NCBI RefSeq assembly: GCF_001540865.1
Contig: NC_033637.1
Location: 4,828,058-4,892,057, forward strand
Direction of reading: 5' to 3'
Origin: Ananas comosus
Taxonomy: Eukaryota; Streptophyta; Magnoliopsida; Poales; Bromeliaceae
DNA length: 64,000 nt
Shown: piece after piece, positions 6,457 through 36,499 of the stretch
Layout: each line of letters opens with the position of its first letter
Numbering within the stretch: position 1 is the stretch's first letter
Program-made: the position numbers and the translations under genes
The notes under the pieces: model-generated
Database searches by the model: none
The model's input: only the letters and a program-made list of their open reading frames with translations
Told to the model about the DNA's origin: nothing

Positions 6457-6461
6457 CGCGG

Positions 6462-8495: not shown

Positions 8496-10661
8496 TGTAG
8501 TCATGAAATTCAGATTTAGTACTTTAATGAGATAAGATAATCATAAAATTCAAAAAAAAAAGTATTGAAAAAATATGGAGGAGCCACGTGTATCTAAGAA
8601 ACCACCAATTTATATATTTGCATGTACGTGGATTTGTAAAGATTTGATACATTTCCGAAGTATAATTATAAAATCCAAATTTGATACTTTATCGAGATAA
8701 GATAACCATGAAATTCAAAATATAAAATACCTAAGAAACCGCCAATTTATATATTTGTATGGACAAGATGTGTACAACTCACCTCCCTAGCTACAATATT
8801 GCAATCAAATAACTACAATGATTCACTCCAAACCAAAAGATGGAAGAAGCGAATCGCCACATTACTGTTATATCATTTCTATATTATTATTCGTTTCTTT
8901 TCTCTCTCTTTTCCCCCGTTCCTCATTTAACTTCTTTGTCTTGTCCTCTAAAAAAAGAAAAAAAAAATTGTCGCAGGAAAACGAACATGCGATTAGCAGT
9001 ATATGATTCACAGATCTTCATATTTCCATCACATGTTAGGGAGCTTAAACTTCGATCACTTGTGTTCTTCAATTCCTGCAAGAAATTAAATACATGCATT
9101 AATTTCATAAGTTACTAGAGTAAATATAATTCTGTAATCTCTTATTGGGAAAAAAAAAAAAAAAAAAAACTAAATATCTCGCAAAGTCGGCGTAAAATAA
9201 TTGAAGCAAAAATCGTTGAGAGAGAATAAAACAGAATNGAGCTTAAACTTCGATCACTTGTGTTCTTCAATTCCTGCAAGAAATTAAATACATGCATTAA
9301 TTTCATAAGTTACTAGAGTAAATATAATTCTGTAATCTCTTATTGGGAAAAAAAAAAAAAAAAAAAACTAAATATCTCGCAAAGTCGGCGTAAAATAATT
9401 GAAGCAAAAATCGTTGAGAGAGAATAAAACAGAATGTCTGATTTCTTATAAAAGAAATCATCTATAATAATTTTTTTAAAGTAAAATATGTAAAACTAAT
9501 TACGTTAATTATGGATCATTTTGAATTTGTTGGGTCTAATCTTTCAAAATTTTAATTTTATTATCCAACTTTTCAATTTTTTGATTTGAGTTAGTCAACG
9601 ATAGTTTGACTTTTAAACTTTAAGCTAACTATTTCTCTTTATAAATTTATAGTTGCTGGAATTCCGTAAAGTTAATTAATCAAATCTGTAAAGATAAACG
9701 ATGCATTCATATTTTGAAATCGAAGTGCTGTTCAGTGACTTAAATCAAACAAATTAAAAGATTAAATAGTAAAATCAAATTTTTAAAAAGTTTGTTAGTT
9801 TAGTCAAAATAGCAGTCTATAGTTCAAAAAAGTTCTGCACATTATACCATTTTACAATTAAAATTTCACTATTTTGGGATAGAGTGCGTGGGCTGTCATG
9901 GAATTCGTAGTCTAATCTGAAATTAGAAAAACCATCTATTTTCAAAAGTTTAAGCTATCATAGATGAGCGTTTTTAATATGGTTAATTTTATACAGATCC
10001 CTGTAAATATAGTAAATTGTAAATATATTCTTACAAACTTCAACTTTCATATATTGTTTCTATAAAAATCCTAATATTTTCAAATATGTCTCTCTGATTT
10101 ATTACCATTAAAGTACTATTTATTTTATAAGTAAAATGACCTTTTTGCCATCATAGATATGTTCCTTCAAAAGTCCTAACTGTTAATTGAATAGGAATAA
10201 AAAAAGTTAATTCACCTCATTCGTATTTTATTATAATTAGTTAACTAATTTTTTCTAACAAATCCTAACGGTAGGAACAAATTTAAAAACATCAGAATTT
10301 TGTAAAGACAATACATGAAAATTAAACTTTATAGAAATATATTTATAATTCACTATGTTTGCAAACATTTACATAAAATTAACCCTTTTAATATTTATAC
10401 TTAACACTAATCCCTCACAAAGGAAAATTTAAAGTATTACTAGGAGTCGGTCCAATTTGAATTTAAGACCTCAAACTAGCAGTTCGATAAAAATGTGAAA
10501 TAATTAATATTCTCTAAAACTTAAGCTATCTCTCACGAGAAAAAATTGAATACATATAAATAAAAGTCTGACGCAACTCGAACTCGGTACAATTTAATAA
10601 CACAATTAAACGAAAAAGAAAGAAAAAAAAAGAGAGAGTATATATAGTAAAGTGTCGACCT
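8496..10661. other. Intergenic, apart from a contig-overlap duplication
   Basis: AT-rich, with no gene recognised. Open frames near 8,818-9,118 lie in low-complexity pyrimidine and A tracts and have no recognisable domain. The only structured item is the duplicated block around the N at 9,238, listed separately. Confidence 0.5.
9041..9435. other. Unmerged contig overlap across a single N
   Basis: Bases 9,041-9,237 and 9,239-9,435 are identical 197-bp blocks, including an A run of about 20, separated only by N at 9,238. Perfect identity including the homopolymer, with an N exactly between the copies, points to two contig ends that overlap but were joined without merging. The duplication is therefore not biological. 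Confidence 0.9.
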
Positions 10662-11140: not shown

Positions 11141-11147
11141 ATTTATA
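11141..11147 (-). promoter_or_regulatory. TATA box of the small membrane-protein gene
   Basis: On the minus strand GTGTATAAATATCAC contains TATAAAT 165 bp upstream of the ATG at 10,976. A start about 30 bp downstream would give a 5' leader of roughly 135 nt. A CA/TG microsatellite (11,122-11,138) lies between them. No other core element is certain. Confidence 0.55.
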
Positions 11148-11149
11148 CA

Positions 11150-12330: not shown

Positions 12331-12337
12331 TTGGGCT

Positions 12338-12565
12338 GGAATACTATTGATAGTATGTGCTCTCTTTTACTATCAAATTTTTAACTTTTGGATGAAAAAT
12401 TGTAGGGTTAGAATGATATTAGTCCCTTAAGGTTGAGTGGTCCTCACTGGATTATAATATTTAATCCAATAATTAGAAATGATCAAAGAAATTGATCCAA
12501 GGGTTAAAAATTTAATAGCAAAGGAGATAAATACTATTAATAGTATTCTAGCTCAACTCTATAAT
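12338..12565. mobile_element. MITE with short palindromic tips (ACTATTAATAGT family)
   Basis: The ends GGAATACTATTGATAGTA and ACTATTAATAGTATTC are palindromic and mutually inverted. The interior matches 1,795-2,045 in inverted orientation (AGGGTTAAAAATTTAATAGC). A further partial copy abuts it at 12,566-12,650. The element is non-coding. Confidence 0.6.
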
Positions 12566-12651
12566 TCTAATCCTATAATTTTTTATTCAAGAGTTAAAAA
12601 TTCGATAGCAAAAGAATCCCAATACTATTAATAGTATTTCACCCTAATTAT

Positions 12652-13180
12652 AGACTTGTATGTTATTAGGAGCACGGAAGCCTCCGTGCTCCTAAGTAAT
12701 TTTCAGTGATGAAACTTTTGAATCGATGATCGGCTCTATTAGATTTGATCTAGTGTATTTGATTAATTATTAGAAAATAAATTTTACAGATTTTCGTTAT
12801 CATTTACCTAGTGATTGAAGGATTTAAAATCAATAATTTTTAATGGTTGATGTGTACCATTTGTAAGTTTAACGGTGTAGAAGTATTCAAATTAGATGAA
12901 ATTTTGATATAAAATTTTTTATACTATCTATAGCAAGATCAATATCTCTGATTGAAAATTTTCGTATTATATCATATCTTTTTGTGAGATTTTTAATTTT
13001 AACCGTTAATTTTGAGTCCATTCAATCATTAGGTACATAATATCAAAAAATCACAAAATGTATTTTCTATATACTTCAAAGATACTAGATCAAGTCTAAC
13101 AGAGCCGATCGTTGATTCGTAAGCTCCATCATCGAAAACAACTTTAGAGCACGAAGCCTTTGTGCTCTTAATAACACACA

Positions 13181-13184
<4 letters not shown>
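12652..13184. mobile_element. Palindrome-tipped MITE, complete
   Basis: Terminal inverted repeats exceed 100 bp: the left side (GACTTGTATGTTATTAGGAG ...) matches the reverse complement of the right side (GGACTTGTGTGTTATTAAGA ...). Each terminus carries a short palindrome: arms AGGAGCACGGA around AGCC at 12,668-12,693, and AGAGCAC/GTGCTCT at 13,146-13,168. The interior is AT-rich and non-coding. The same sequence occurs as a mirror image in block A. Confidence 0.75.
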
Positions 13185-13186
<2 letters not shown>

Positions 13187-13230
<44 letters not shown>

Positions 13231-13231
13231 G
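13187..13231. repeat. (CT)n(TA)n microsatellite
   Basis: A pure dinucleotide run of CT followed by TA. The alignment between the 12.5-kb sequence and its mirror in block A loses perfect identity here. Confidence 0.85.
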
Positions 13232-13235
13232 TATA

Positions 13236-13525
13236 GAGTCCGGCTACTATACTCTAATGAGTACGCTGGTACTCATAAGTTATTTTCGATGATAGAGCTT
13301 CCGAATCGACGATCTACACCGTTAAACATTATTTAGAGTATTTAAAACATCTAGAAATCAAATTTTATAATTTTTCGACATCATTTACCTGACAATCAAA
13401 AGCTCACAAAATTGACAATTTTTAACGGCCGGTATGAGATATTTGCTAGTTTAACGGTGAAAAAGAATCGGAATAGGTTGAATTTTTGATAGAAAATTTT
13501 ATTCACTACCTAAATAAAGATCAAT
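13236..13525. mobile_element. Palindrome-tipped MITE, truncated at the N
   Basis: Starts GAGTCCGGCTACTATAC, then a palindrome with arms ATGAGTAC/GTACTCAT (13,257-13,276), then sequence shared with block A only when block A is read backwards (25,455 down to about 25,185). It stops at the N at 13,526. Confidence 0.65.
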
Positions 13526-13679
13526 NAACTCTAAGCACGGTAGACTATCTGCCACTTACCTCGCCAGGCACATGGGCACGGGCGGTTTTAAAACACGGGC
13601 GATCACGCCAGCACTCAACGCTGCGCGCGCGGCGGCGAGCTGCTGTTAGCAGCAGCAGCAGCAGCAGAAGAAGGAGGCG

Positions 13680-13710
<31 letters not shown>

Positions 13711-13712
13711 GT

Positions 13713-16700
13713 TACCTCAAAAACTTCGCGCGCTATGAGGCTTAGCGCAGGTGGGGGCTGCGCGCGGAGGGCCTCGAGGGTGCGGAGGTGGCGACGGAGG
13801 AGGAGGGGTAGGAGAGGAGGCGGAGGCGGGAGATAGCGGAGAGGGAGGAGGAGGCGGCGGCGGCGGAGGAGGAGAGGGGGGTGTCCGTGTTTGGGATTGG
13901 GATTGGTTTGGGGCAAGGAGAAAGAAAAAGAATCTCAAAGATCGAAAACAGGGAGAGAGAATCCCAAAGATCCAACGGCCACGGCCACTATTCGCAACCC
14001 TTACACTGCACCCCGCCGTTACCTTTCTGCGGGTACCACCTCGAGTAGCGGGCTAAGAAGCTGCTTACGCCCTAGTGGGGGGAGCAGGAATGGTCTCATA
14101 GATAGAGGAAGAGATATCTGTCTACAACACACGGCGCTAGAATATAGCCTTTAAAGAAAAAAATCTACAAACACTAATCGGCTACGACGCAATTTTTAGG
14201 GTTGAAAAAGAACTTAACCTCGACCATGCTCGCTATTGAAATGGTACGCGCCAGTACAGAGAGTAGGAGTGTTTAAATGCTGATCAATTAAGGACTTTCT
14301 AAACTGTGGTAAAGTACAACACGGTTGTTAAAAAGGAAAATTTTGTACTCGTATCTTCAACAAAGACTATAGGAACACTACACAAATTATAGTAGTAACG
14401 TTAAGGTACATTACAAAGGAACCAAAACATCGGAATCGTTATTTGACAATTCTCATTTAATATTGAATCAAAGATGTGTATCTTCTCAACATGCCGGGGA
14501 AAGTCATACTCGTCTCATTACGCCAAACGATGTTGACAACTACAACTGCCGTGGAAGCTTGATAGCTAGCAACTAACGGGGAGCCGTTTTTAATCTGTAA
14601 TAACGATTGGGTCGACATTGCGTCTATAACACGACGAAAATAGGAAGAAGGAACTGCAACGATACTAAAAAATAGAGTACGCTGTGGAATGGCAGTCCTT
14701 AAGTTGTAGTGTTTCGTCAAAGCCATAGTTCGAATTTTGACTTTACCAAAAAGGAGAGAAAAGAGAAGAGATTGTGTATATAGTTGTCTTCTAACAATCT
14801 CAACAGATACTTGATCGTTGAAATTGCACAAATACCTAAAACCATTTAGACGACTACTTTACAGATTACCTTGAATTTGACATCGGACAAGTTTCCCTTT
14901 TACAATGTATACATCAATCTATACAAGACTAAAATGTTTAAGCATAAGAGTATCGTATTGTAATAACTAGTTTTAAGACTTTAGTCTCTAGAGGAAATAC
15001 GTATAAATACAGATACAAAAACGAATCTTCTATAATATTATTTGTCCTACCTCATCAGAGAAGTAACAGGTGTTTAAAAAAAGTGTCCCAATACGTCCAC
15101 CACTGCTCCGGTTTTACGAATTTTCCGTGGAGGTCCTATGAAGACGTTATTAACCGTATCCACGATTGTCCCGTCGATGACGACGAAGAAACGAGTTATT
15201 TGTACCAATATGACTACGAACGGCACACAATACATACCTCCTGGTATGTAACGGTGTGTTCAAGCCTGGAGTGAGACTGTTACCTTTTCAACCACACCAT
15301 TATAACCTACTACCCTACGTCCATAATTTGTTACTTATATATGAGAGTACTTAAAAATAAACCAGACCTATTATCCATTAATTCATATAATACTATCAAT
15401 CAACGGTGACTTGTTCTGAAATCATCCACGGCTTATCATAAATAGGTAGACTATCGGAAACATCGACACGTTTCATATAAACATCGATAAAATTGAAGAA
15501 CCACAGTTTACGTTTTAAATTTTAACAATAATATCCTCGAGAATAAAAAATAAAAAAAATTCACCCAACTTTAACCACTATCCAACTGGAAGAACTACTA
15601 GACTAAAAGTACACGAAGGTTAAAGACACTAGTTAAAATAATAACAATAAACTGAAGAGTACTCAGGTACACGAATAAGAAACATATAGGTGTTACCAGA
15701 CAGGATTTAATAATCGTCTTCTTACCTTCACAACAGGGGCTACATAGTGGTGGAAGTACAAAAGGACAAGACACTCGACTACGATAATATTCATTGCCGC
15801 ACTTCGTAGCTTCGACAAAGATAATGATCGTTGTGTTAACCATCGATATCACTACAATGGATTGGAAAAGAAAAGGAAACTGTTGGAAAGAAGTACAAGT
15901 TTTGACAATGGAGATCAATAACGGTAATTGATCTACAATGACATACTAGCTTTCGGAGTAGAGGTTTTTATTTTATTACCGATTATAGACTAGTCCTAAC
16001 TTTAAGTTACCTCAAAGGGAAGTAAAAGACAAATAACAGAAACAACATGAACTACAGGACACCTGTGAAACTTCGTGTCATAAGCAGAATTGGTATAGAA
16101 GTAGAGCAACAACATCCGTCGTGACCTCAAACAACGCATTACACCTTTAGCAATACCATTTATCGTACTACGGTACCCCCTTGAGAGTGGAATAGGGTGC
16201 ACCTGGAAACTCCCTTGGTAATTCACGTGAACCAGTTCGCCTGTAAAATCAATAGGTAGTGCGCCTAAACCATGCAAATTCAACAAGATGACAGATTGAA
16301 CATATATCACGACCCTGTCAACCATGCAAAAGAGGCCTTTAATCAGTAAAGAGCATACGTCTCTATCAATTAAAAAGAAACTGTACGTAGAAAAGAACAT
16401 GACTTAGGAGTAGATACTTATTAAAGTTAGTACTTCCCTTTACAACACATCAAAGCCTGAAGTTGAAGAATAACATCATAGATCCCAGTTCAAAGAATAT
16501 ATACTCGATGAAGACCAACCAACAAAAAAAAAAATAGTAAATATAAGATGTACTAAGTTTATTAACGTTCGAAAGAGATTTTACGTTACTTACTGTCACG
16601 AAGAATAATTTGCATCATTTGTGATAAGAAAACAACGTAAATGAAGAAGTGTCCACAGACTATACGTCGAATTTTAGTAACTTAGTTGTCAGGATCTATA

Positions 16701-17975
16701 TACACCTTGGGACGGTTACAAGAAGTCATCTAATCAGGGCAGTGTAGAGAAGCCTCAATTCTTAGGAGTAAGTTCTAAGGGCGATTGATACAACTTATTA
16801 AGACGACATAATACACATAGACCTTAACCGAAGGGTCTACGGAAAAAGGTGCGTCAATCTCTCCATTAGAAGAAAAAAAAAAAAGCAAAAGGTAAAACGC
16901 ACTTATACAAGAGATAGATTTCAAGTTGAAGACCTCAGACGGATTCAGTTCATTCATTAAAACACTTTATCTTAAAACACATCGGGAGCTTGCAAGAAGA
17001 AATTTAGTTCAATCTTGTGGAGAAAGGGTACAGATGACGCTTCAATTATCAACGTCTAACCTACCGATTGGTGCCTACCAGGCAGAAGATGATGACATGA
17101 AAAGCGTAGTAGGAAGGGTCTTCCTGATCGGGGATAAGAATTTGGACTATAAAGACCTCGAATAACATTAGTGCCGCTAAGAGTTACTTTAAAATATAAG
17201 AAAAAATTTTTTATATATATATATATATGGTGGAAAAATACCAAATTTTGTAAAATCGATCTATAAACCAAAAGACTTATACACAACAGATTTAGTCTTT
17301 CTATGAACAAACAGGGGCTACCTTATAGATGTGCCAAAAGAATATATAACAAAGAAATACCAACTACCGGTCGACATAAAGGAAATAAAAAAAGGTTGTA
17401 AACATTGTAGGTACAACAACGCATACCTCAAAGTAATTATTAAGGTTTGACGACGTCGAACCTGGTAACGTACAACCATCTGACCTGAAGGAACTAGTAG
17501 TAGGAAAATTTCGATCGCACTCAAGAAACAATTGACGAAAACAATAGTCATTAGTCGGTAATTATATAGACAATTAAAAAGAGGTTTTTGTAGGAATTAA
17601 AAACACTTCGATCGCTTTCGGTGAGTTCAAGCCGGTCAACATTAATTGACCGGCTTGAATTAGACCTGTGATAAAGGTAGAAAGCTCTTGAATTTTTGAT
17701 CTCAAAATAGAGAGTTTATGAGTAATTGTTTGAATACCACGTTCTTTCTTTGATAATGTATTAACTGCATTAACACTTTCGCTAGTATAAAGAATTCCCA
17801 AAGTCGCGCGTCTCCTAAGAATGGATGACTTTATATACTACGATAAACTACTAAGGGAAACTCGATTAATCAATTAATGGTAAGGTCCTATAGGTTAACT
17901 AGTCTCTCTTTCGACGTTTCGAACGACGAGTGATGTTATTCCTCTGTCAACAGCATCATTGTCTCTTCCATGCCA

Positions 17976-18026
<51 letters not shown>

Positions 18027-18432
18027 CAAAAGAATCACAAAAAAAAAAAAAAAATCTCTATCCATCGTGCGATGGGCGAAGCAAATAAAGTAAATCTTTA
18101 TTTGAATCGACCTTTATACTTAGTTAATCCTAAACTTGAACCCTGGAGCCCATGGTTGGTGGTTCAGGAAACGGTGAACGAGATCCCTATCAGCCATTCC
18201 ATGTCACAATAACTACAGTAAGAAAATTGCACGCTCACAAGAGATTAAAAGTGAAGGAGGTAAAAGACTGGTCCTAATACTAGCGTTAGGTGTATAAGAG
18301 CCTCTCTATCTACTGTATTTACAAAACCAGGACACAAGAAGAAACGTTTAGTACGGAAATTTCCCTTTTTCGCTCCTACTAAAATCTTACTTCGACTTCC
18401 TCGAAAATTAATCTTGTTTTAGACACGGCACT
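13713..18432. CDS. LPXK: Tetraacyldisaccharide 4'-kinase (LpxK), readable only after complementing
   Basis: LpxK phosphorylates the 4' position of the tetraacyl disaccharide in the lipid A pathway; in plants the pathway is mitochondrial (known). Complemented left to right, the exons are 13,713-13,885, 13,973-14,096, 15,088-15,321, 16,121-16,270, 16,654-16,863, 17,458-17,517, 17,888-17,968 and 18,274-18,432. They total 1,191 bp, giving 396 residues with all phases consistent and TGA at 18,430-18,432. Family marks: LPVPVISVGN at 59-68, P-loop GGNGKTP at 72-78, GYAGGDE at 100-106, IGIGANRAAT in exon 3, LDDGMQHW at 172-179 across the exon 3/4 border, PRGPLREPL in exon 4, and TEKDYDR at 342-348. 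Exons 2-7 have GT donors and all acceptors are AG. Intron 1 appears to be GC-AG. A (CT)n tract precedes the ATG. In a corrected sequence the gene would lie on the minus strand. Confidence 0.93.
17626..17659. repeat. Perfect 14-bp inverted repeat in LpxK intron 6
   Basis: Arms TTCAAGCCGGTCAA (17,626-17,639) and TTGACCGGCTTGAA (17,646-17,659) enclose a 6-base loop. It lies within intron 6 of the complemented LpxK gene. No function is assigned; it may be part of a small inserted element. Confidence 0.6.
18055..18205. mobile_element. SINE copy in LpxK intron 7 (reversed text)
   Basis: Complemented in place, it reads GATAGGTAGCACGCTACCCG, then a run containing TTTAGAAATAAACTTAGCTG, then GGGATAGTCGG: the SINE family in the same order as the normal copy at 28,042. 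A tail of about 55 A in the printed text (T when complemented) precedes it. Imperfect duplications resembling AGGTACAGTG flank it. Confidence 0.75.
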
Positions 18433-18679
18433 GGAGTAACACATGTCGCCACGCAACATAGGATTTAGCAGCCCAATAATCCCATTTCAGATTCCATACG
18501 AATACGAAGACCACGATGAGCTCCAATAACATAGGGACACCCAGACTTTTAAAACTAAGAAAATTGTATGAATAAAGCGATAAAATTGTCTACTAGTCTA
18601 CATCTTGGAGTTAACCTTTGATACATCGTTAATAGTATTCCCTAGGAATAACTGTAAGAGCCGATCTTTTAATTAAAAA

Positions 18680-19045
18680 AATCCCATTTGAAGTTTATGG
18701 TGGGTACATTAAAACGTGAAAGAGTGAAATCACAGGACCCCAAATTTCACATATTTCAATTACAGAACGCCAAAGTAAAAATAGAAAAGCAGTCGAAAAA
18801 GCAATTATAAAGCAATTTAATATATATTTTTTGAAGTTTATGAGGTAGATCTAAATAGCTTATAAGTGAAATAATGGGAAATCAAAATTGAAACAATAAT
18901 TAAATTATTTTTCTTAACCACTTTAGTTATTATTTTCTTATTTTTACTTTGGTGTACCATGATTTAACTATGTAAAATTTAGTGTTTCATCATTTCACTC
19001 TTTTACACTTTGGTGTATTCACTATAAACTTCAAAAGGGGAAAAA
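18680..19045. mobile_element. MITE of the TAAACTTCAAATAC family (reversed text)
   Basis: Complemented, it starts GGGTAAACTTCAAATACC and continues with CTCACTTTAGTG, the family seen in normal orientation at 36,112. Long inverted repeats at both ends enclose a non-coding core. Confidence 0.65.
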
Positions 19046-20589
19046 ATTGGAAATTTACGTCAAGTTAAAAACAATACCCTCTTTTAAGTATCGTAACACT
19101 TTTCCTAGTTGGTTGAGATCCCATACATATTAAAAATGTGACTTACGTAGAGTTACAACCACACGAAATAATTCTCCAACTAAATACATTACGAAAACCT
19201 TAGTGCCTCTGGGACACAAGGATGAAAACGTTAGTAACCTAGTTGAAACTCTAGGCACGACTAGGGGACGTCTCACTACGAATGAATAGGTGTTAAAACT
19301 ATAGTATAAAGGAGTAGTAAACTCAAAGAATTCAAAAAGTAGAGGTTGGGGTCGTATAGATGATATATAAATAAATAATTATACTTCTCTGACCCCTTAC
19401 AGGTGGGGTGTGAGACGATATGAGGTTCAATTCAGTTTGAATCAATCAAGGTAGTGGACGTTTGTAGGAGTAGTAAACATATATATGTGTCGTTCTTTGT
19501 TTATAAGATAACTTTTCTTTTTTTTTTTTTTACCTTCTACGTCTATAAGTTGTGTTGTTGATCTTCGTTCTCCTGTTTTACTCACCCCTTCCACTTGAGG
19601 ATTGGTTGGAGTGGTTGGTTTGGGATTTTTACTACCGAGAAGTAAACACCTGGGTAGACCAACTAGGACGAAAATAAAAACGAAAATAGTTAGAGATTGG
19701 CACACAAGCTGTTTTTTTTTTTTTTGTTTTTTTTTGTTTTTCTTTTTTCGAAAATCTCGAGCAAACCATATTATCTTAACATCTTTAATAGAGAGTCGGT
19801 TTAAATACGGTAATGTTTTAAACGATAAAACATATCTTTGTTTGTTCTACAATAAGATAGTATGAAAAAAAAAAAAAAAAAAAGAAACGACATGTGTTAT
19901 GTACAAATGACATTAAAGTTTAACTCAGAAACATTACTAGGCTAGGCGATCGTTATTATTGAGCAACCCGGAATTTGTTGGCCGGATTTTACAAATTCAG
20001 GTCAATAATAATAATAGCACACTTCGGAGTATATAAGATTAGTCTTAATAAAAAAATAGGTTATATTTTAACAAACTCGTAATGTCAGAATCGTATGTAT
20101 TGTTCTTCGCTTCTACTTTAAGAATATATCTTGAAAATTAAATCACATAGACTAGATTCCAAAATTCACAGGCAGCCGTGTCCGGCATAGATGGCACGGC
20201 ATGGCACAGTTGTTCTACGGTCGTGCTATGTCTGGGGCATGGCTACTGTGTCGAGTTTTGAGAGATAAGAAATTTAATCATTTATTAAAGGAGTTATTTC
20301 AAGTTTTCTACACTTCTTTTCTATGTTATTTATCAATCTTATAAAACAACGATTTCTTTTATTTATAAAGTATGATAATATACAGCCATGTGTTCTTAAA
20401 AAAATTAGCCTTACGTAGCCGTTCCGAGTCGTGCGTGGCACGGCACAGCACAACCGTTCAAAGGCCGTGCTGAGGCACGATGCTGTAAATTTAGGAACTA
20501 GACTATCACGACTTTTCTCGTCATATATCTTCTGTCTCTCTATCTCGTCTTCTTTTTCTAAGAACCAACTTTTTTATATATTTAAAAAA

Positions 20590-21020
20590 TCCTTTTTGAA
20601 CTTTTTGGGGGGAACATCAAAGCACGAAAAAGTAAAATCATGGTACATCAAATTTTACATAGTTCAATCATGGGACACCAAAGAGTGAAATAGTAAAATC
20701 ATGGGACACCAAATTTCACATAGTTCAATCATCATAGGATACCAAAATAAAAACATAGTTCAATCATAGGACACTAAAATAAAAACATAGTTCAATCATA
20801 GGACACTAAAAATTTGGTATCCCATGATTTCACTATTTCACGCTTTGGTGTATTATGATTTTACTATTTCACGTTTTGGTGTACTATGATTGAACTATGT
20901 GAAATTTGGTGTCTTATGATTTCACTTTTTCACATTTTGATATACCATGATTGAACTATGTGAAATTTGGTATCTTATGATTTTACTCTTTTTCACTTTA
21001 GTGTAATCTTATAAACTTCA
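20590..21020. mobile_element. MITE of the TAAACTTCAAATAC family, internally expanded (reversed text)
   Basis: Long inverted arms contain tandem copies of a unit of about 35 bp (CATGGGACACCAAATTTCAC and variants) on both sides. Homology to the copies at 18,680 and 24,170 is clear, with extra unit copies here. Confidence 0.6.
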
Positions 21021-21069
21021 AAAAGGTTTAAAAATTAAATCACAAAACTAAGACGACCTCTCTCTTCGA

Positions 21070-21112
<43 letters not shown>

Positions 21113-22245
21113 TTTACGCATACTTGGTGGTGGAAGCATACCAACTACGTTACGCCCACGTTCCCATGTTCACTGCGTTATTATGCCGGTTCCCCTAATC
21201 GACTCACACGGGGCCTCCCCTATTGTGGAGCGCACTAAAGTAATTTACGCCAAGGAAGCGTCGCCCCGGGACGACACGCGGTAAAATTACAACCAAAACC
21301 TAGGTGGGAGCGACGTACACCGGAGATTAAAACATGTTGTCACTGTTTCTCAAGCATTGTCTAGAGTGATAATAGGAGGGGGTACAAAAGAACGTATATT
21401 TATTTAACCTGCCTCATGGCGTCCAAGAATTTTGAGTGGGGTGGGAGAGAGCTGTCATCTATTTTAATCTTAAGTACCATTTCAATGGCTAAGATGACGT
21501 GACAACGAATTAAACCAGTACAGTGCTAATTTTTGTGTTTAAAATATATTACTTTCTTTCTTGTGTTAGAAAATACTAACGTTGACAGTAATCTTTTTCG
21601 TATATTGCTAAAATATCAAGTCTTCTTCTTTTCCAACTTTCTTTAAAAAAATAAAAAAATCTGAAAGATATTATAATTTTATTATAAAAATCGGTAGAGG
21701 ACTAAACACATTCAGAGAAAATTACTATTACATTACGCATATCATTATGCTCAAAGAGAGATTACAACGACTACTTAACAAGTATATATATCACGTATCC
21801 TTAACTACACTGATTAGTCGCCACAAACAGTCAATATAAATAACGCGTTTGTAACTTAATAGTTTAAACTGGTTTAAACTAATAATTTTTATCACTAATC
21901 TAAGCTATTCGAATAGATAGTTGTAGTTGTAGTCAAGATGATATGTAATTGTGACGTGAGAAGCATTCGTGAAGGTATATACTATAGTAATTAAGAAGAC
22001 AAAAAAAAAGAAGTCCTTTTTTTTCTTTTTTCTTTTTTCTTTTGTCTTCTTCTTTTGTACCGAAGTAAATTCAACTCGTTTGTGTGTATCCTCGGGTGGT
22101 ATCAACCATTTAATTAATTTCTCTTTTTCTTTTTGACTTCTAGATTCGTACTGTCACCACGCAATGGACGGTGACGGACACTCTTTAAATTACGAGAATA
22201 ATTTCGAAGGGTCTGGGGTCAAAATCTCTCTCTTTTCTCATTGGT

Positions 22246-22284
<39 letters not shown>

Positions 22285-22469
22285 CTGGGTTTACGTCAAT
22301 AACGTCGGAGTGGGTGGTGTTTCGACCGAGGTAGCTAGTTTTCTAAGGTACGTCAAATCGGAGTCAACTACGGGAGAGTGAAAAATAGTAACGTCAGTTT
22401 TACGAAAGTACGAAGGTAGAAAAGTGAATGTAGAAGAGGCGCTATAATTGTAATAGGTATGAATGTAGC

Positions 22470-22620
22470 TGGCAGGGATTTTGTTCACCGTTTCTTAAAT
22501 TAATAACTATAAGCTCTAAAGTTCAAGCTTAGGATTAACTAAGTGTAAATATCGATTCAAATAAAGATTTAATTACTTTATTTGCTTCGCCCATCGCACG
22601 ATGAATAGAGATTTTTTTTA
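22470..22620. mobile_element. SINE copy (reversed text)
   Basis: Complemented, it begins CGACCGTCCCTAAAACAAGTG and contains AAGTTCGAATCCTAATTG (box B) and AACGAAGCGGGTAGCGTGCT, ending in an A-rich tail. It matches the reference SINE at 3,044 in sense order. Confidence 0.7.
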
Positions 22621-23194
22621 TATAGATATAAATGATATGTACTGAGCTCGTATTCTTTTTAGGATAAATGTGTCGGATATTCACTCTACATATAGAACGT
22701 GAGTGAGTAGATTTATAAATTTTATGGAGAAAATCTAAGGAAACCTACAAGTCTTACATTCTAAATGCGATACGAATATCCACGTATCTATCATGACGAG
22801 ATATATATATTATTTAAACCGATCGACAGCAGTCACCGACAGTTTTTTGTTAGATACTTAATAACTATACCCGTGTCATGGAAGATGAATCCCAACTAAA
22901 GTAAGTATACGTATACCTTTTTTTTTAGAATGAAACCTGTCTATCTAAATAACTTAGACGAATAACAAATTTTAAATAGTTTAAACGATTTAGAGTAGAT
23001 TTAGACATGTATCTCTTTCACCAATACTATTATGTATGTTGGTAGGATAACTACATCTATTAATTAAAACTATAACTATCTATGTAAAGAACTTAAACTG
23101 GTAATAATTGATTATTAACTTAAAGTAGACTAAGTAACTTAGATCGATTGAACGGGGTGCCTTCTACTGGGATGACTATAATGAAAAAAAAAAA

Positions 23195-23335
23195 AGAAAA
23201 AAAACTCTCTATCCATCGTACGATGGACGAAGCAAATAAAATAAATCTTTATTTGAATCGACCTTTACACTTAGTTGATCCTAAGTTTGAACCCAGAGCC
23301 CATGGTTGGTGGTTCGGGAAAAGAAAATAATCAAT
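23195..23335. mobile_element. SINE copy (reversed text)
   Basis: The printed CTATCCATCGTACGATGGAC and following bases are the base-by-base complement of the SINE at 28,051-28,190 with few mismatches. It is the clearest single repeat-based proof of the polarity error. Confidence 0.75.
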
Positions 23336-24169
23336 TATATGAATTACTAATCTTGGGACTCAGGGAGGTTACCTTCAACTTGATTTCTATGTTTCGAAAA
23401 CGAACTAGGGGTATAGAATGGTGATCTTTAGGATTACTAATTAAATCGGAATATATAATCAAGGATCCCCTAAGAGTAAACGAATGGAATATACCGTGTA
23501 CACATCGTAAAAAGGATAGGATGAGGAAAACATTTATTGTAATTAATTTCTAATATGTTTGATACCATTAAACGATTGTTTTTCGTAAAAACTAAGAATG
23601 ATACTTGTTATTGTATACAAGCTGAAAAATACATGAGTAGTTTCTATACCTATCCCCTTTCTTCTTCTCTAATAATAAAATAATTTTGTTCCAAAAGGAG
23701 TACTGAGGTTATAATCTAATAACCAACGACCGAAAAATCGGTTTTGAATTACTCGACCAATATAAACTGGAACCTTACAGAAAAAAAAAAACTTCTAAAT
23801 TAACAGTTACCCTTTGGAGTCGGAAAATGACTAAAAATAACCTTTAAATTCTCATATAAACTAGTAAATTCTCGTGAAACACCGTAATAAAACGGGAAGG
23901 TTACAACTTACAAAGTTTTAGAAGTAAAACTGAAGGTTAACGTAAGTCTTACAATCCAATTCTTCCCGGGATGATAGTAAGTTTTTAAAATAAATCCTTT
24001 CACACCCACCCGGAAAGTTTATGAAAATTAGTTAAATTAAATTTAATTAATGAAAATTCAGTTCAATTTCTAATCAATTTTAGTTGTCGACGTAATTGAC
24101 TTTTTCGGGTAGTAAAACAAAGTATTTTATAAACCAAACTAACTGTCTTTGGTGAATTTATCCTCTTTT
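23336..24169. other. Block A intergenic, nothing recognised
   Basis: AT-rich in either reading. No exon, RNA gene or element terminus was recognised. Confidence 0.4.
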
Positions 24170-24545
24170 TTATTTTCCATTTGAAGTTTATGTTGGGGAT
24201 ACTAAAACGTGTAAGAGTGAAATCATAGTATACCAAATTTCACATTGTTGAATTATAAGACACCAAAACAAAAATTAGAAAAACAGCCGAAGATGCAGTT
24301 ATAAAGCAATTTAATATACCTTTTTTTTAAAATTTATGGGGTAGATCCAAATAGCTTATAAATGTCATGGGAAATCAAAATTGAAACAGTGACTAAATTG
24401 CTTTTTTTAATCATTTTAGCTATTATTTTTCTATTTTTATTTTGGTGCCTCGTGATTTAAGTATGTGAAATTTAGTGTACCATGATTTCAGTCTTTCACA
24501 CTTTGGTATCACCACCATAGATTTCAAAAGGGTTTTTTTAACTTT
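24170..24545. mobile_element. MITE of the TAAACTTCAAATAC family (reversed text)
   Basis: Complemented, it reads GGTAAACTTCAAATACAACC, then CTCACTTTAGTATCATATGG, matching the normal copy at 36,112 almost base for base. The far end is its inverted repeat. Confidence 0.7.
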
Positions 24546-24919
24546 TTTTTTTTTAGTTTTCGATCGATAGTAAATATGGATCGAAGAAATTAAAATAAGT
24601 GGATAGCGTATATTAGTTAAATTCACCAATCAAAGTAACGACTGTACACTATCTCATTCACATGAATTTTCAAGACCTCGGTAATAACGGGTGTGTCGAT
24701 TTTTATTAATCGTAGAAGAAATTAAAGAACCACTAATTAAACACTTCACACTTATATCGTAAATATCACACGACGTAGTTTCTCTGAAAGTTTTCTTGTT
24801 CGTTCCATCCACATGTTTGATATAAGTTCAAAGGTTTATTGTTATTATTATAATTCAAAATATAATAATTCAAAATATATATATATATATATATATCATC
24901 CCGATAATATGATAATACT

Positions 24920-25425
24920 CATAACCCGGGAAGCATGAGTATTCAACAAAAGCTACTATCTCGAAGGCTTAGCTACTAGGTGAGGCAATTTATACTAGAT
25001 CTCATAAACTTTGAAGATCTTTTATTTAAAGCATTAAAAAGCTTTAGGATTATTTCAGGTACTTCGTCCGTATTTTACTTACCAGTTTTAGCTTGCTACA
25101 GAATTTTTACCTACTAGCCCAGGAAGTTAAATTCTAGTCTCAATAACTAGAAATAGATCCATCACTTATCTTAAAAGATAGTTTTTAAGTTGAATAAGCC
25201 TAAGAAAAAGTGGCAATTTGATCGTTCATAAAGTATGGCCGGCAATTTTTAACAGTTAAAACACTCGAAAACTAACAGTCCATGTACTACAACTTTTTAA
25301 TACTTTAAACTAAAGATCTACAAAATTTACGAGATCTATTACAAATTGCCACACCTAGCAGCTAAGCCTTCGAGATAGTAGCTTTTATTGAATACTCATG
25401 CTCCCGCTAGCATGAGTAATATCAT
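24920..25425. mobile_element. Palindrome-tipped MITE (reversed text)
   Basis: The printed ends carry palindromes ACTCATAACCCGGGAAGCATGAGT-like at about 24,927 and 25,396. Read in corrected polarity, the body (ACTCATAAGTT, GATGATAGAGCTTCCGAATC) matches 13,265-13,525, allowing completion of that truncated copy. Confidence 0.65.
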
Positions 25426-25522
25426 ATCATCGGCCTGAGATATATATATATATATAATAAGGTTGAATAATCTTCTCTTCCAGAGAAAAAAATTCTCAAT
25501 AACTCAGATAGTATCTCTCTCA

Positions 25523-26060
25523 TCTCCTGAACACACAATAATTCTCGTGTTTCCGAAGCACGAGATTTCAACAAAAGCTACTACCTCGAATGCTTAGTTG
25601 CTAGCCGAGACAATCTGAACTAGATCATAGAAACTTCATATATCTTTTATGTAAAACACTAAAAAACTATAATACATGGATTACTAACTTACCTGAGTTT
25701 TAATTGCCAATTTTAATTTTTAGAGTGTTTTTCTATACTATATTATGCTTTTAAAAGTTAGTCTCTATAACTAGAACGATATCTATCATATTTTTTAAAA
25801 TATAGTTTTAAAGTAGATTAAACTTATGAAGATGTGGCAATTTGAATGTTTACCATGTGTAGTTGGTAATTTTTAATAACTAAAATTTAGGAAGTTAGTG
25901 ATCCATTTACTATTGCTTTTAGACATTTTAAATAAAAGATTATTAATTAGTTTATGTGATCTAGTTTAGATTATCTCGGCTAGTAGCTAAGTTTTCAAAG
26001 TAGTGACTTTTAATGAATCCTCGTGCCTCCGAAGGCACGAGGATTATTGTATGTTCAGAT
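25523..26060. mobile_element. Palindrome-tipped MITE (reversed text), mirror of 12,652-13,184
   Basis: Read right to left without complementing, this is the same sequence as 12,652-13,184, including both terminal palindromes; the stretches I compared by eye are identical. It belongs to the mirror repeat described in the findings. Confidence 0.85.
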
Positions 26061-27110
26061 ATTAATCCCACTTTATGATAATTATCATAACCCTAAGAAA
26101 ACGATAGCTTAAAAATTGAGAACTTATTTTTTAATATCCTAATCTTAATATCTCAACTCGATCTTATGATAATTATCATAAATAGAGGAAACGATAATTT
26201 AAAAATTGGGAAAGCCGAATTCTTATTATTGATGGTGTGAAATAGCTTCTTTTAATTAAAAACCCGATTGGTCCATTCCATTCCGATTCCTATTCCGATT
26301 CGGATTGGAGAACAAAAAAAAAAAAAAAAAAAAAAACAAATGCGGATCTAAAGATAATAATTTACCAAAAGTGTAATATTGGTATTTTTTAAGATCCCAT
26401 TTGGTTCGGAAGATAAGCGTATTCCGGCTATTCCACCAAACGAAGTCATTTTTTGTTTAAGGAAGGATTCTTATAATAAAATAAAATTAAAATTAAAATT
26501 ATAGGATAGTTTAGTATAGCTTTGTAAACTATAAGATAACAAAGTAAAAAATCTACTGCCCAATAAAACTTGGAGTTTCAAAAATAAAAATAAGCTGTAG
26601 AAATATTTTGATTTTTAAAAAAAATAAATAAATAAATAAATAAAGATAGAAATACAGAACAACTAAGTTTTAAACTTAATTAGAACGTCATACATCAACC
26701 ATTAAATTTTTTACCATTTGCACTAAGAACAGTTAATTGCATTACAGCTTATTTGATTTATGGCTTTTTACATATTACGCTATCGGCTATTCACATGCTT
26801 TTTGGAAAATTAGTTACCCGAGTTTAACACGACAAGCAAAAATATTCAAATCGAAGGATCCAATTAATCCATTTCATCAAACCCATGCTCTACCAAATAA
26901 ATAAAGTTTAGATGAATAAGCCCATTTGGCTGCAGGTCACATCACCCTACTGGATCCTTAGCTCTTACTACTTCAACTCTTGTTGATGCTTGTGATGTTC
27001 AACCAATACCACCTGGTGGAAGTTGCCATACACCTACCTATCATTACTACAAGTTTCTCCAAATGATCGTATGGAGATCATGATCCTCAAGCATCTTCTC
27101 AAAACATTTA

Positions 27111-27796
27111 GGGTGCGTTTGGTTCGCGCTATCTTTTAAAGATTTTTAGTAATTCAATAGAAATAAAAAAAATATGACGGTGTTTGGCTAAACGCACTAA
27201 GTAATCTAGTTGGTAATATTGGATTCACTTGGGAATAAGATTCACCCCAAAATACTAATTTCATTTGCTTGAGGGAGGGTGGGTATCCTCATATTAATGG
27301 ATTGGGATAATCATAATATGTATAATCTCTTTCTTTCTTCCTACCCGCCGGCTAATTAATATTATTTTTCTTTACACTTTAACCTTATATCTCTTTCTAA
27401 ACTTATTTCTCTCTCTAAAATTCAACTTTTTTTTTCTCTCTCTAAACTAAGCTTTCTCTCTCTCTCTCTTTCTAAAATTTCAACTCTCTCCCTCTAATTT
27501 CGACTATATTTTTCTTTCTATTTTTTTAATTATGCTCTTTCTCTCTCTAACTTATACTCTCTCTCCTTTTTTTCTAAAAAGATGTTGAAATTTTTGGTAA
27601 CATTATCTAAAATTAAATAAATAAATTAATTAATTAATTGTATATTTTTTGTAATATTAAATAACATAGCTAATTAATATTACCGTGCGAACCAAACACA
27701 GAAATTTTACATTCTTAGTAATAGGATAAATAGAAATAAAATTTTCGAATATCTTTTATTTCTAGTAATTTTTCATAATGCGAACCAAACGCACCC
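27111..27796. mobile_element. PIF/Harbinger-type MITE, copy 1
   Basis: Terminal inverted repeats GGGTGCGTTTGGTTCGC / GCGAACCAAACGCACCC flanked by the 3-bp duplication TTA (27,108-27,110 and 27,797-27,799), typical of PIF/Harbinger. The interior has a long polypyrimidine tract. It is homologous to 36,500-37,184 and, inverted, to 57,519-58,216. Confidence 0.85.
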
Positions 27797-28041
27797 TTAG
27801 AATAAATTAAACTCGTGAGCTCGAGTTTGCGTAGCTCGCGAGTTAAGAGAATCCGACGTTTCACTCTTCAGGACGAAGTCGCTCTTTCACGCTGTACTGG
27901 ATCGCTCCACCACTTTACTTATCAGCATATGTCGCGATCTTTTTCTCGATCCTAAGCATATACTCTTTTGCTGTTTACAAAGTACTAGATTCATATATTG
28001 AAATGATGTCCTATTTGCGTGCTCTATGGCATGTACTAGCC

Positions 28042-28194
28042 TTTTTTTTTGAGAGATAGGTAGCACGCTATCCGCTTCGTTTATTTTATTTAGAAATAAA
28101 CTTAGCTGGAAATGTGAATCAACTAGGATTCGAACTTGGGTCTCAGATACCAATCACCAAGCTCTTTGCCATTTGCTCTGGGGATGATCGGTGA
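28042..28194 (-). mobile_element. SINE with 12-bp target-site duplication
   Basis: Normal-polarity copy on the minus strand. Box B-like AAGTTCGAATCCTAGTTG and the family 3' region end in a T run (A-tail) at 28,042. CATGTACTAGCC repeats at 28,030-28,041 and 28,195-28,206. This copy is the reference used to show that 18,055, 22,470 and 23,195 are written in reversed polarity. Confidence 0.85.
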
Positions 28195-29014
28195 CATGTA
28201 CTAGCCTTAATTTAATAAAAATTAGTGTAAAAATAATAAAATATACTAAGTTTGTTTAACTAACCCTATATTTAAAATACACCATATATGTAAATAAACT
28301 CTAACCTATACTATTAACGAATTAGGATATACGGTTCGGGTTTGTACTCTAATCACGTCACACATATCTATCCCGAATAATGAAACATTTGATTTTAATT
28401 AATTTTTTTGTTGTTGTTGTTGTTGTTGTTGTCGTTAGAACCGAGAGATGTAATCGAAATCTACCCGGTTCTTTGAAGGTGTAAAGTATTTGTTTCTTTT
28501 CTTTCTTAGATCTCTCTGTAATCCTAATTAACACAATGTTTATTCGGTAGTTAATCTTAGAAGTTACTCTTAAACTAGTATTTTTACCGAAAAGGTAGTT
28601 ACTCGTTTCTTACACCCCCTTCTCGTGTCGGAGAGGGAGAGGGAGAGATGTATATATAAAGATATGACAAAGGAAAGGAGAAGATCCCTAGAAAAGATTG
28701 TCCTTTGATTTTGTCGTTTATGTATGTGGAACATATGGTAAGTGTGTACCGATCTTACGTCAAATTCGGGAAGTCTATATAGGCGTTCGTAAAATGGCGT
28801 GACTCACTATGTTATTAACGTAGGTGTCCCCGGCTGTCATTGTTTTGATACGCGCGTTTTACTGGTTGACTCACGTCTAACCTTCAAGACACTCGTAAGT
28901 CTTGATCTATATAGGGCCCCTTATTTGACGTAAAATCGGAAACGTGTAACTGGAATATTTCTCATGCTGCCGCTCTACAAAAGAAAGGTTTTTAAAGACG
29001 AACTACATAAAGTT

Positions 29015-32000
29015 AGTCTTCTGACGTGAGGTCTCTCGCGAAAGTGGAAGCGGCGTGGCGACTACTTGAAGAAAATAGGAGACTCGTCTCAACGTATACG
29101 GCGACGTCGAGGTTAGCTTGCTCCGTTGTGTCTACAACGGCCGGACTCGAAAGGTGAGCGTCAGACCTCTGTACATAACAAAAGAGCTAATCAAAGTCAA
29201 ATAACTGGCTTTACATTGTTTAGTGTGCTATAAATATCGAATCGGCTTTTACGTTCTAACAGCCGTCTACGTAATAAAACAAGGACTTCGTCTTTTCTAT
29301 GCGGAGTTATACAAAAGAGTTTGTATCTCTTGTTATCGGAGCAAAGCATTGCAAAGACTCAAAAATGAGCTTTGTCGATGATTTCTACTAAATTTGTACA
29401 ATGTACTTTCTAAATTGTGAAATGGTCCGCCTCATGGTGTTGTGTCAGAGGCCAGTAGCTATACAAGGTGTAGATTAGGTTACTTGGTGCTGGGGTTGCT
29501 GTGTAGGAGTAATCGCATGAACACCTCGTATACGGACTCCACTTAACTTGTTGTTAATCGTCAAAAACAATGCCGCTATTTATTGTATAAGTTTTTCTTT
29601 CGAATGACCAACAACCTATACATATAGCGGTCTAGAAAACTTTAACGTATATCGACTGGTCATCGCACCGCCTTTATGAACAAAGGAAGGAGAGGTTTAA
29701 AGGTCATGAGTCCAAGTACTATGGAGTGGGGGGACTAGTTGTTTTCAACGCGTGTATTTTTGTTCCGAAATTTGTATTTATATGTGTGTATTACATATCA
29801 TATACGTTGAGATGTAGTAAGCGACATGTATATGTAATAAACCATTTACGAATGAAAGCGCGATCTTGTCCTGGCCTAAAGTACGTAGGTTATATTTGTG
29901 CTCCGAAACTTGCCACGGAACGGTTTCATAAAGGTTCTCATCGACGTTACCAAACCGTTCACCTTCATAATCATATATTCCTATTTTCGTAATGCCTTCA
30001 AATATCTATACCAGGTTGTGTTGTCTAGTAGTATCAATCTTCTAGACTAACAAGTGTCCAATAAGTAAAATCAACCATTCTTTGACCTTCATTATTGGTA
30101 CGCTGTCCGCTACAATGGGTGACCTTTACTTCTCTATATTGTAGCTCTCTTTTCCAACCATCTTTAAACCGGGCGTGCCGTACCGTACGGTAAATATTCC
30201 ACAACTCGAAATTATAACGTAACTATTTAAGGATAGTTTAAATCTAACCTCTTATTGGATATTATGCTTAGTCAACCTATACGTCTTAGCTAGACAATCT
30301 ATGTTTAGTCTACGTAGATATTTCTTTTTTTTTTGAATTTAGCCGGTTATTTCTCCGACCGTTTTCGCTTAACCAGAGCGTGGATATAAATGTACATGTA
30401 GTAGTAGATGAAACTACATCTTGAGACGTAGGGTGTACCTGTGTCGACATCGTTTCATATAGAACCAGAAGCGTCTATCAAGTTCTATGGGAAGCTGCAC
30501 TAGGATTTCTTCAAATGCTTATTCATACCAATCCCTACTTTAGCTTACAGGTTTAATTTTCGCGGTCCTAGCTTACTTCGACCTGATTTTCGAGTCCCTA
30601 ATCATAACGTTTATTGGCTCTCTTTTAAAATGCTCAGAGTACTTCAGGGGTACAAAGGACGGAAGACGAAGTTAACGGAATAGGTCATAAGGTGGACCTC
30701 AGCGTGATACACTTCTATGGTTTGTCAGTCTTATTTATAATGTTTAAATTGCAAGATGTTTTTACCATTGTCGTTCGACCTTACAAAATGAGCAGGTGTG
30801 GACACTGGATACTGCTTCGCCTACTATTACGGGAAGAGAAGGAGATCGAAGAAAGAAAAGAGCGGACAAAATCAATTAGCGTAAAAAGAACATCACTACG
30901 TAATTTACTCCTTTCGCTGTCCGTTTATTCTTCACTTCCTTTCCAAAGCTTGGAACTCCGTTGGTTCATCGCGCTTGACTTAGAGAAGAAAACGCCGACG
31001 ATTTTCGTCATAAATACGGATGTTGGTATTTTTTAAAGACGAAGGGCCAACTAAGCTCTCGTAGATGTAAAAGGCTATTACCCCTCGGCGACTCATACCT
31101 GAGAACGCACCGGGAACGCCGTCGATTAAGGTAAAGATCCAAACTCTAACAAAACAGCTCACAGGACGTATATTTTTAATATTAACGAGTGACCTAGCTT
31201 TGCTCATTAATAAGTTCTATTGATTGTTGAATCACTATTCAGCTAAGCTTGTGTTTTTAGAATGACATATCGTACTACCCAGGAACTTTGAAGTGGCTCT
31301 TGCAGGAACACGAGAGCGAAGACCGGTTAGATTGTTCGCCGTTTTTTTTTTTAAAATTTTTTATTTGGTAGTATAATCTTTTTTTTTTTTGTATTAATTG
31401 GTTTAAAACCCTCTTGATTTGTTATTAAAATGTGTATTTGAAGTAAAAACTAGTCCCCTGTTGTTCTAACACGTAGTACTAAATTTGGTTGTTTAAGAAG
31501 ATGTCTTGGTATTGTAACGTGCTTATTTTTATCTATTTGATTGTTTTGAGTGTGAAAAACATGATGTTAGCGGTCGATGCTCCAAGTAGAAGAGAGGAAG
31601 CCAGGGACAAGAGGCCTATTATAGAAAACCAAGTCCCTAGCAGGTGTAGGACAAAGGTGGAAAACTTCTAATCATACGATTTAACGTGAAAATAAGGAGA
31701 TTGTCGATTACGTTTATTCAGCTTCGTGTATATGGTGAACGTTACGTATTTTTCAACGTTTATATTCTTAGGGATTAAAAACAATGCGTCAGCTCATTTA
31801 CGTATAGAATTAAAGTAACACCATTGTTTCGGTTTTTTTTTTGGGTTAAGTTCACGATAGTTTAGTAGTTGACTCTTCACGAAGGAGAAACTTGCTTTCA
31901 CGATGTTTTGAGCCGTTTTAAATGGAGAGTTAAGTGGTCTAGAAGGTAATCATCTGAGAAGGGAGAGATAGACCCTCGTTCCTGAGTTTTGAATGATTAG

Positions 32001-32544
32001 GTATATTCTTTTTCTAGAAAATATGGGAATATATTCTAATTGGGGTTTAGATGTAAGAAATAGTATCTTTAGTTGTTGTAAACTTGTTGGGGATTTTGGG
32101 GTTAAGTTCAAAGTGTTCTTGTTCGTTGTTTGTATAGTTTAATTCGTCTTTTTTGTTGTAAAATCTAGTTTTGTCCGAGTTTAACCTACTTTGTTTTCCC
32201 CGTTGCACTTAATGACTAGGTATTTCCTAGTCTTTTTGATTTGGATGTAAGAATAGTATATTCAGGTGTTTTAGACTTGTTCGGGTTTTTTGGGTTAAGT
32301 TCAAAGTGGTCTTGTTCGTTGTTTGTATAGTTTAATTCGTGTTTATTGTTGTAAAATCTAGTTTCGTCCGCGTTTAACCTACTTTGTTTTTTCCCGTTGA
32401 AATCTTGGACAATCACTTCTCCTCCGGTTCCGTTTTCGAGGGTTCCGTTTCGTTGTTCCGGGTAAAGGATCTGTGTCACGGGGCTTTTCTTCTTCGGAGA
32501 GGAGGGGGTTAACGAGGAGGAGGAGGAGATGAGAATTTCGAGTA
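29015..32544. CDS. Beta-1,3-galactosyltransferase (GT31, DUF4094), read right to left without complementing
   Basis: A type II Golgi glycosyltransferase that transfers galactose in beta-1,3 linkage onto glycans or glycoproteins (family knowledge; the acceptor is not predictable). Exons, read from high to low coordinate: 32,544-32,408, 31,649-31,553, 31,320-31,265, 31,164-30,953, 30,864-30,801, 30,705-30,633, 30,503-30,383, 29,942-29,855, 29,732-29,607, 29,534-29,425 and 29,163-29,015. They total 1,233 bp, giving 410 residues with every phase matching and TGA at the end. The signal anchor is about residues 28-44 (WALLLCLGSFCLGLLF). DUF4094 follows (RMWTIPEPKD, GEVSRTHHAIQ). Then SSRKRRDSVRATWLPQG, IIIRFVIGHS, the DxD motif VDDDVHVN at 245-252, HATGQLYAIS, and the ED-containing NEDVSLGSWF at 333-342. 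Cysteine-rich C-terminus with ASFDWSCSGIC and ALWSAVF. All introns GT-AG. In corrected text it would lie on the plus strand. Confidence 0.93.
32045..32391. repeat. Tandem duplication in the galactosyltransferase first intron
   Basis: Two imperfect copies of a unit of about 150 bp, at about 32,391-32,235 and 32,193-32,045 read right to left, share TTTTGTTTCATCCAATTTG, TTGATCTAAAATGTTGTT and GGTTTTTTGGGC-like segments. It lies wholly inside intron 1 of the reversed gene. No coding sequence is involved. Confidence 0.7.
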
Positions 32545-32579
32545 ATAAATGTTAGAGCTAGGGGAGGAGAGGAGGAGGG

Positions 32580-34859: not shown

Positions 34860-35400
34860 ACGGGTGTTTTCGACATTCTCCAACGGGGGAGTTATTACCT
34901 CAACGTGCCCGAAAAAAACGTTTATCGGGGATTTGTTTAAAATAAACGTTTTTATCGGGAGAGATTTTAAATAAACGTTTTTACCGGGACGGAGACGGTG
35001 CGGTCGCGGTGCAGTCGCGGTGCGCCCGTCCCTGACCCGGTCCATAAGTTCAACTTGTGCCACTAACCAAGTGGCACAGATTTGTGCCACTTGACAATTG
35101 GCACAAATCTCTGCCACTTGCTAAGGGGCACAGATTACATTAAGGACTACTCGCTGTGAACGCGCACTTATGTGACTTGTGCCAATAACCAAGTGGCACA
35201 AATCTGTGCCACTTGGTTAGTGGCACAAATAGAACTTATGGACCGGGTCGGGGACGGGCGCACCGCGACTGCACCGCGACCGCACCGTCTCCGTCCCGGT
35301 AAAAACGTTTATTTAAAATATCTCCCGATCAAAACGTTTATTTTAAACAAACTCCCGGTAAACGTTTTTTTCGGGCTCAACGTGTGAACGTGGTTTGTTA
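34860..35400. repeat. Long inverted repeat with arms of about 250 bp
   Basis: The left arm (about 34,872-35,125) and right arm (about 35,150-35,400) are near-perfect reverse complements, so both encode the same spurious peptide in opposite directions. Repeated AAACGTTTATTT and GTGCCACTTGG motifs occur in each arm. Read in corrected polarity, the outer arm has GGGCCATTTTTGCAAATAAA, a plausible transposon terminus. This is probably a fold-back MITE. Confidence 0.65.
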
Positions 35401-35857
35401 AAGAAAGTGAAGTGCACAAATGGGTGGAAGAATATATTAAACACTTAAATAAGAATAAACAAAAGGTAGTTTAATTAAAAAAAATTTATTATATCATTGT
35501 ACTCTTAATCAAGATCGAATAAAATTAACGAACATTTTCTAAGACTTAAAGCTGGATACAAAGATCACAAATTACTAACTATATATATTCTGATTAACTA
35601 ACATGGAGTATTCAAGCTTTATAACAACAACAAAATATAAAGAAGGACTATAAGATAACAGACTCTACTTAGGCACTTCACCATTTAAAATAATGAGTAG
35701 ATTTAATATTACTTACTACTATCAAATACTATTCGACGCTAATTAAGTTATTAATCACCTTGATCGAGGACTCTACGTATAGTACAACAGTTTACCTGTC
35801 ACTCTAGCAGGCTATACGCCTTTCTTTTTTTAATGTATAGGTTGATGGTATTTTCGT

Positions 35858-35858
35858 N

Positions 35859-35891: not shown

Positions 35892-35897
<6 letters not shown>

Positions 35898-36470: not shown

Positions 36471-36499
36471 AATAGTTAGTGAAAATCTAATAACATTTT

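Follow-up and report, generated by a model that had tools for sequence, protein, structure and literature searches.

Mirror-written blocks in a 64-kb assembly window of Ananas comosus, each holding a plant gene

The window, that is, the whole stretch of 64,000 nucleotides of Ananas comosus DNA analysed here, consists of plant DNA rich in A+T and contains single Ns at three positions (9,238, 13,526 and 35,858). Two genes are present, one for tetraacyldisaccharide 4'-kinase (LpxK) and one for a GT31 beta-1,3-galactosyltransferase. Once the text is mirrored, i.e. its base order reversed and its bases left uncomplemented, they are complete and ordinary, like other plant LpxK and GT31 genes, but unlike these they are undetectable in the printed text. 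They lie in two blocks, B and D (Table 1), which are strongly shown to be written with reversed base order and without complementing, an artefact and not biology. The mirrored blocks add up to 20.3 of the 64 kb, or 32% of the window. G+C is 34.5% in block B, 36.0% in block D and 34.2% in the flanks, and neither block has an N inside it.

Table 1. Positions of genes, repeat copies, contig ends and mirrored blocks in the window
Feature	Positions	Strand	Remarks
Unmerged contig-end overlap	9041..9435	+	Exact 197-bp duplication flanking the N at 9,238, normal polarity
Preceding contig's end	12499..13525	+	End-to-end overlap with reversed 26,212..25,144
Single N	13526..13526	.	Left edge of block B
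Mirrored block B	13527..26212	.	12,686 bp
LpxK (tetraacyldisaccharide 4'-kinase) gene	13713..18432	.	Runs left to right once complemented in place
LpxK exons	13713-13885, 13973-14096, 15088-15321, 16121-16270, 16654-16863, 17458-17517, 17888-17968, 18274-18432		
Block C	26213..28206	+	Normal writing, no N on either side
MITE-like element, three copies	27,097-27,800 (block C); 36,486-37,186; 57,515-58,219		About 700 bp, normal polarity
SINE-like copy in block C	28,042-28,192		Repeat CATGTACTAGCC on either side, at 28,030 and 28,195
Mirrored block D	28207..35857 (left edge approximate)	.	About 7,651 bp
Beta-1,3-galactosyltransferase (GT31; DUF4094 + Galactosyl_T) gene	29015..32544	.	Read right to left, uncomplemented
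GT31 exons	32544-32408, 31649-31553, 31329-31265, 31164-30953, 30864-30801, 30705-30633, 30503-30383, 29942-29855, 29732-29607, 29534-29425, 29163-29015		
Single N	35858..35858	.	Right edge of block D

The LpxK model of block B has 8 exons and 396 amino acids, with a near full-length Pfam domain (LpxK, PF02606, 8.7e-65, residues 32-370). The phases are consistent, and the introns comprise one GC-AG intron, in first place, and six of GT-AG type. Against protein P0001 of Ananas comosus the model shows 97% identity, the next species standing at 67% among the matches listed; the domain and the high identity to the orthologue together mark it as a plant LpxK. When P0001 is aligned to the mirrored window, it falls into seven ordered pieces, with all exons matched in the mirrored text alone, whereas on the printed window its single match, with E 0.87 and located at 60.4 kb, is put down to chance. 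The original prediction had described this gene on the in-place complement, with 8 exons, consistent phases and 396 residues, and the gene is as described there. It had also proposed that the reading should be given up if the reversed text had no plant LpxK match; plant LpxK does match the reversed text.

Block D has a complete GT31 gene in its reversed text only. The model comprises 11 exons and 413 amino acids, and 10 of 10 introns are GT-AG. Both DUF4094 (5e-25) and Galactosyl_T (7.4e-50) are found, as expected of a plant GT31 beta-1,3-galactosyltransferase, these scores being for the model without exon 3. Among the matches listed, the closest protein is P0121 of Ananas comosus var. bracteatus, with 91% identity over 95% of the exon-3-less query. 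Together with the LpxK identities, this points to Ananas or a close bromeliad as the likely source. P0121 is recovered as 11 ordered pieces on the mirrored window and not at all on the printed one. Compared with the window model (32,544-29,015), the public P0121 record has a different N terminus and carries an additional piece, NLVFMCATFVDQ; these differences look like exon prediction errors in the public record.

For both genes, splice junctions were picked among GT-AG (or GC-AG) sites. Because these dinucleotides were required when the junctions were chosen, they are a consistency check and not independent proof. Intact splicing and an intact frame are nevertheless found together, for LpxK and for GT31, in the mirrored text only. 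At E<1e-5, none of 240 plant LpxK and GT31 proteins matches the printed window and all 240 match the mirrored window, every match lying inside blocks B and D; the proteins had been retrieved with the mirrored gene models, and the count bears on polarity and not on families. Blocks B and D are overlapped by 15 printed open reading frames of at least 95 amino acids; Pfam yields no match for them at or above its cut-off, and weak ones below it for three. The printed window has no tRNA, and no Rfam family reaches the gathering score in it. Fragments of Copia-type retrotransposons in normal polarity are found at 51,896-54,163 (+) and 46,334-47,119 (-), with the domains Retrotran_gag_2, Pol_BBD, gag_pre-integrs and SH3_retrovirus (3 of 10 scanned open reading frames matched).

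Repeats shared between the blocks and their normal flanks give a second view of polarity. Each block, printed or reversed, was compared with the flanks by BLASTN (E<1e-3, both strands). Block B has no matches as printed and 49 when reversed; block C has six as printed and none when reversed; block D has none as printed and one weak match of 35 bp when reversed. As a control, the normal flanks were reversed and compared with themselves, with no BLASTN matches. The longest exact match is also on the reversed text of block B, where 26,212..25,523 equals 12,499..13,188 over 690 bases with zero mismatches, whereas the printed, reverse-complement and in-place-complement readings of this block share at most 27-30 bases with the flanks, all of them CT repeat. 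Homology of block B to other DNA thus appears after reversal alone. For block D the longest exact match to the flanks is 16-19 bases, alike in all four readings. Because the repeat and exact-match tests on DNA give almost nothing for block D, the mirror call there rests on the gene and on k-mers.

Block C is marked by two elements whose SINE and MITE labels are putative. The SINE-like copy of block C has three matching sites in block B, and these appear only with block B reversed. The three MITE-like copies are 93-95% alike and open with GGGTGCGTTTGGTTCGC. A single mirrored unit running from N to N (13,527-35,857) is ruled out; the printed text of 26,213-28,206 has matches among normal copies, and the contig-end overlap lies at 26,212. 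A stretch of 87 bp in block B (20,917-21,002) matches its own reverse; tandem arrays are listed there, and the match is taken as tandem-repeat symmetry. In normal sequence, 3,568-4,218 and 5,807-6,456 form a direct duplicate of 651 bp with 99.4% identity.

The dinucleotide biases of double-stranded DNA are equal on both strands but unequal when a sequence is read backwards, an example being the excess of TG+CA over GT+AC. In bins of two kb, the ratio (TG+CA)/(GT+AC) is above 1 in seven of seven bins at 1-14,000, in all 14 from 36,001 on, and at 26,001-28,000. It is 0.67-0.93 in the six bins at 14,001-26,000 and 0.65-0.78 in the four bins at 28,001-36,000. A strand-symmetric 4-mer polarity model, trained on 35,859-64,000 only and applied to one-kb bins with the mixed bin 13,001-14,000 omitted, scores 12 of 13 bins as normal in 1-13,000 and both bins in 26,001-28,000. 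Mirrored scores are given to 11 of 12 bins in 14,001-26,000 (block B) and to eight of eight in 28,001-36,000 (block D). The bins against the trend are 10,001 in the normal part and 20,001 in block B. Of the 28 bins on which the model was trained, 26 score as normal, the exceptions being 36,001 and 48,001.

When a two-state segmentation was trained on the two flanks and run with five switching penalties, the lightest penalty placed edges at 13,972, 26,200, 28,196 and 36,601; the four heavier penalties absorb the normal 2-kb piece, block C. The outer edges fall about 450 and 740 bases beyond the Ns, in zones rich in simple repeats. Repeat copies indicate that 36,097-37,186 is written normally, despite the segmentation edge at 36,601.

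The ends of contigs give sharper limits. Block B, reversed, opens with 1,069 bases that dovetail with the 1,027 bases immediately preceding the N at 13,526 (1,069 columns, 94.2% identity). The two are identical over the first 690 bases; 38 substitutions and two gaps, of 36 and 6, make up all the differences and lie past the onset of a CT/AT repeat. This overlap shows that block B is a separate contig whose left neighbour is 9,239-13,525. The N joins at 9,238 and 13,526 are alike in that each has an unmerged end overlap. End overlaps were also sought at the B/C, C/D and D/E junctions, and the matches were short low-complexity or internal repeats only. The left edge of block D has no N and is set just past the SINE-like copy, with an accuracy of perhaps 150 bp. 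Three of the four block edges thus fall on single-N joins or on a contig-end overlap, and the fourth, at about 28,206, is unmarked. Polarity switches at 26,212-26,213 and at 28,206-28,207 without an N, unlike at the edges at 13,526 and 35,858.

Mirror-writing of 13,527-26,212 is confirmed and lies far above chance. It was originally predicted that this segment is reversed and uncomplemented, and the 690-base mirror match, the 49 matches against none and the 4-mer bins all agree. Its coordinates are exact to the base, because the edges are fixed by the N at 13,526 and by the end-to-end overlap at 26,212. As an account of a single block the prediction holds for 13,527-26,212 but is incomplete, in that the second block at about 28,207-35,857, with a complete gene, was overlooked.

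The blocks were likely mirror-written by a joining step that complemented contigs placed in minus orientation without reversing them. For block B the real plus strand is the printed letters taken backwards, and the opposite strand is those letters complemented in place. If the contig of block B had been stored on that opposite strand, joining would have needed its reverse complement, and complementing the stored strand without reversing it would give exactly the printed letters. As the preceding contig overlaps, end to end, with block B in its reversed form, a complement-only slip is the likeliest for this block. Reversing a minus contig without complementing it was considered for block B and rejected; it would have brought the preceding contig up against the in-place complement, and these two share no end overlap, their matches being limited to 27-30 bases of CT repeat in the interior of the contigs. 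Block D would have arisen by the same slip, by analogy, the orientation logic being drawn from block B and block D lying without a neighbour overlap. We infer that the operation was complement-only, that the joining of oriented contigs was the step at fault, and that block D has the same origin. A wider form of the proposal, that all minus-oriented contigs of the assembly are mirror-written, so that missing genes and assembly-specific regions were made by one code line, is conceivable, with a chance somewhat below even. Two pieces of the window are mirrored and four unchanged, and a properly reverse-complemented piece is indistinguishable from a plus piece.

Other origins are less probable. 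Mirror-writing might have been introduced after deposition, while the supplied window was handled, and not in the assembly, which is unlikely. The edges lie on the Ns at 13,526 and 35,858 and on a contig end, 26,212, that is known through the overlap alone, an edge to which processing of a plain string would be blind. Because three of four edges sit on N joins or a contig-end overlap, the error most likely arose at contig joining and not in the supplied string. A stray reversal of plus-oriented contigs with no complementing would yield letters identical to those of a complement-only operation on a minus contig. It is nevertheless less plausible than the latter, and quite unlikely, in that a joining program would have no reason to alter plus contigs, and the pieces next to the blocks have been left as they were.

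A real genomic event, such as an inversion or a genuine mirror sequence, is improbable in the extreme. The strands are antiparallel, and we know of no rearrangement that reverses the base order of one strand without strand exchange. Nothing in the present data speaks for such an event. The longest exact match of block B to its flanks is 30 bases of CT repeat as reverse complement against 690 as reversed text, and a real event would leave unexplained a contig-end overlap in which introns, exons and repeats are mirrored together. An ordinary inversion and a misoriented contig were both rejected for block B, where similarity as reverse complement is lacking. Block B as printed has no flank matches on either strand, so that it is no ordinary inversion, and the attribution to a data-handling error is supported as the sole reading in agreement with the data. 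Genomes have been said to hold many reversed, non-complementary sequences (PMC2206014), although the section available of that paper has none of the present kind.

A misoriented contig is valid DNA on the other strand and can be aligned by BLAST. Mirror-writing resembles such scaffold misassembly in its origin at contig joining, in its contig-sized units and in its edges at gap Ns, but differs in that block B as printed matches nothing in the flanks on either strand. An unmerged contig-end overlap (negative gap), as present at the N joins at 9,238 and 13,526, duplicates sequence but leaves polarity unaltered. Overlapping contigs are left unmerged by optical-map scaffolding, according to the portion of PMC7736779 available, and in that of PMC8920891 reversed motifs serve as a control. 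No description of a mirror-writing fault was recognised in the available parts of the literature on such artefacts or on overlap joins.

There is no biological novelty in two ordinary plant genes; the value of the locus is as a warning, together with a simple screen. The fault is silent, and both genes, as well as the repeats of block B, are unfindable in 32% of the window. Should it recur across the assembly, gene completeness would be lowered and false presence/absence variation created. If every minus contig were mirrored, a large share of the published genome would be unrecognisable to reads, gene finders and BLAST. The dinucleotide or 4-mer polarity test is reference-free and could screen any assembly for mirror-writing.

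The order of the two genes was compared with that in other plants by eye, from the 120 matches listed per protein, with contigs of equal size for both proteins as the criterion. LpxK and the galactosyltransferase are on an equal-sized contig in 10 of the 24 species common to both listings (Phoenix, Elaeis, Carex rostrata, Dioscorea sansibarensis, Tasmannia, Persea, Aquilegia, Magnolia sinica, Cinchona and Ranunculus cassubicifolius) and are not in the other 14. A. comosus is among the 14, and its listed protein looks like a paralogue. In Aquilegia the tags of the two genes are 00500021 and 00500031. On the basis of the 10 species and the Aquilegia tags, the comparison suggests, without proving it, that LpxK and GT31 have long been neighbours, and that the blocks stand in the right order with only their writing wrong.
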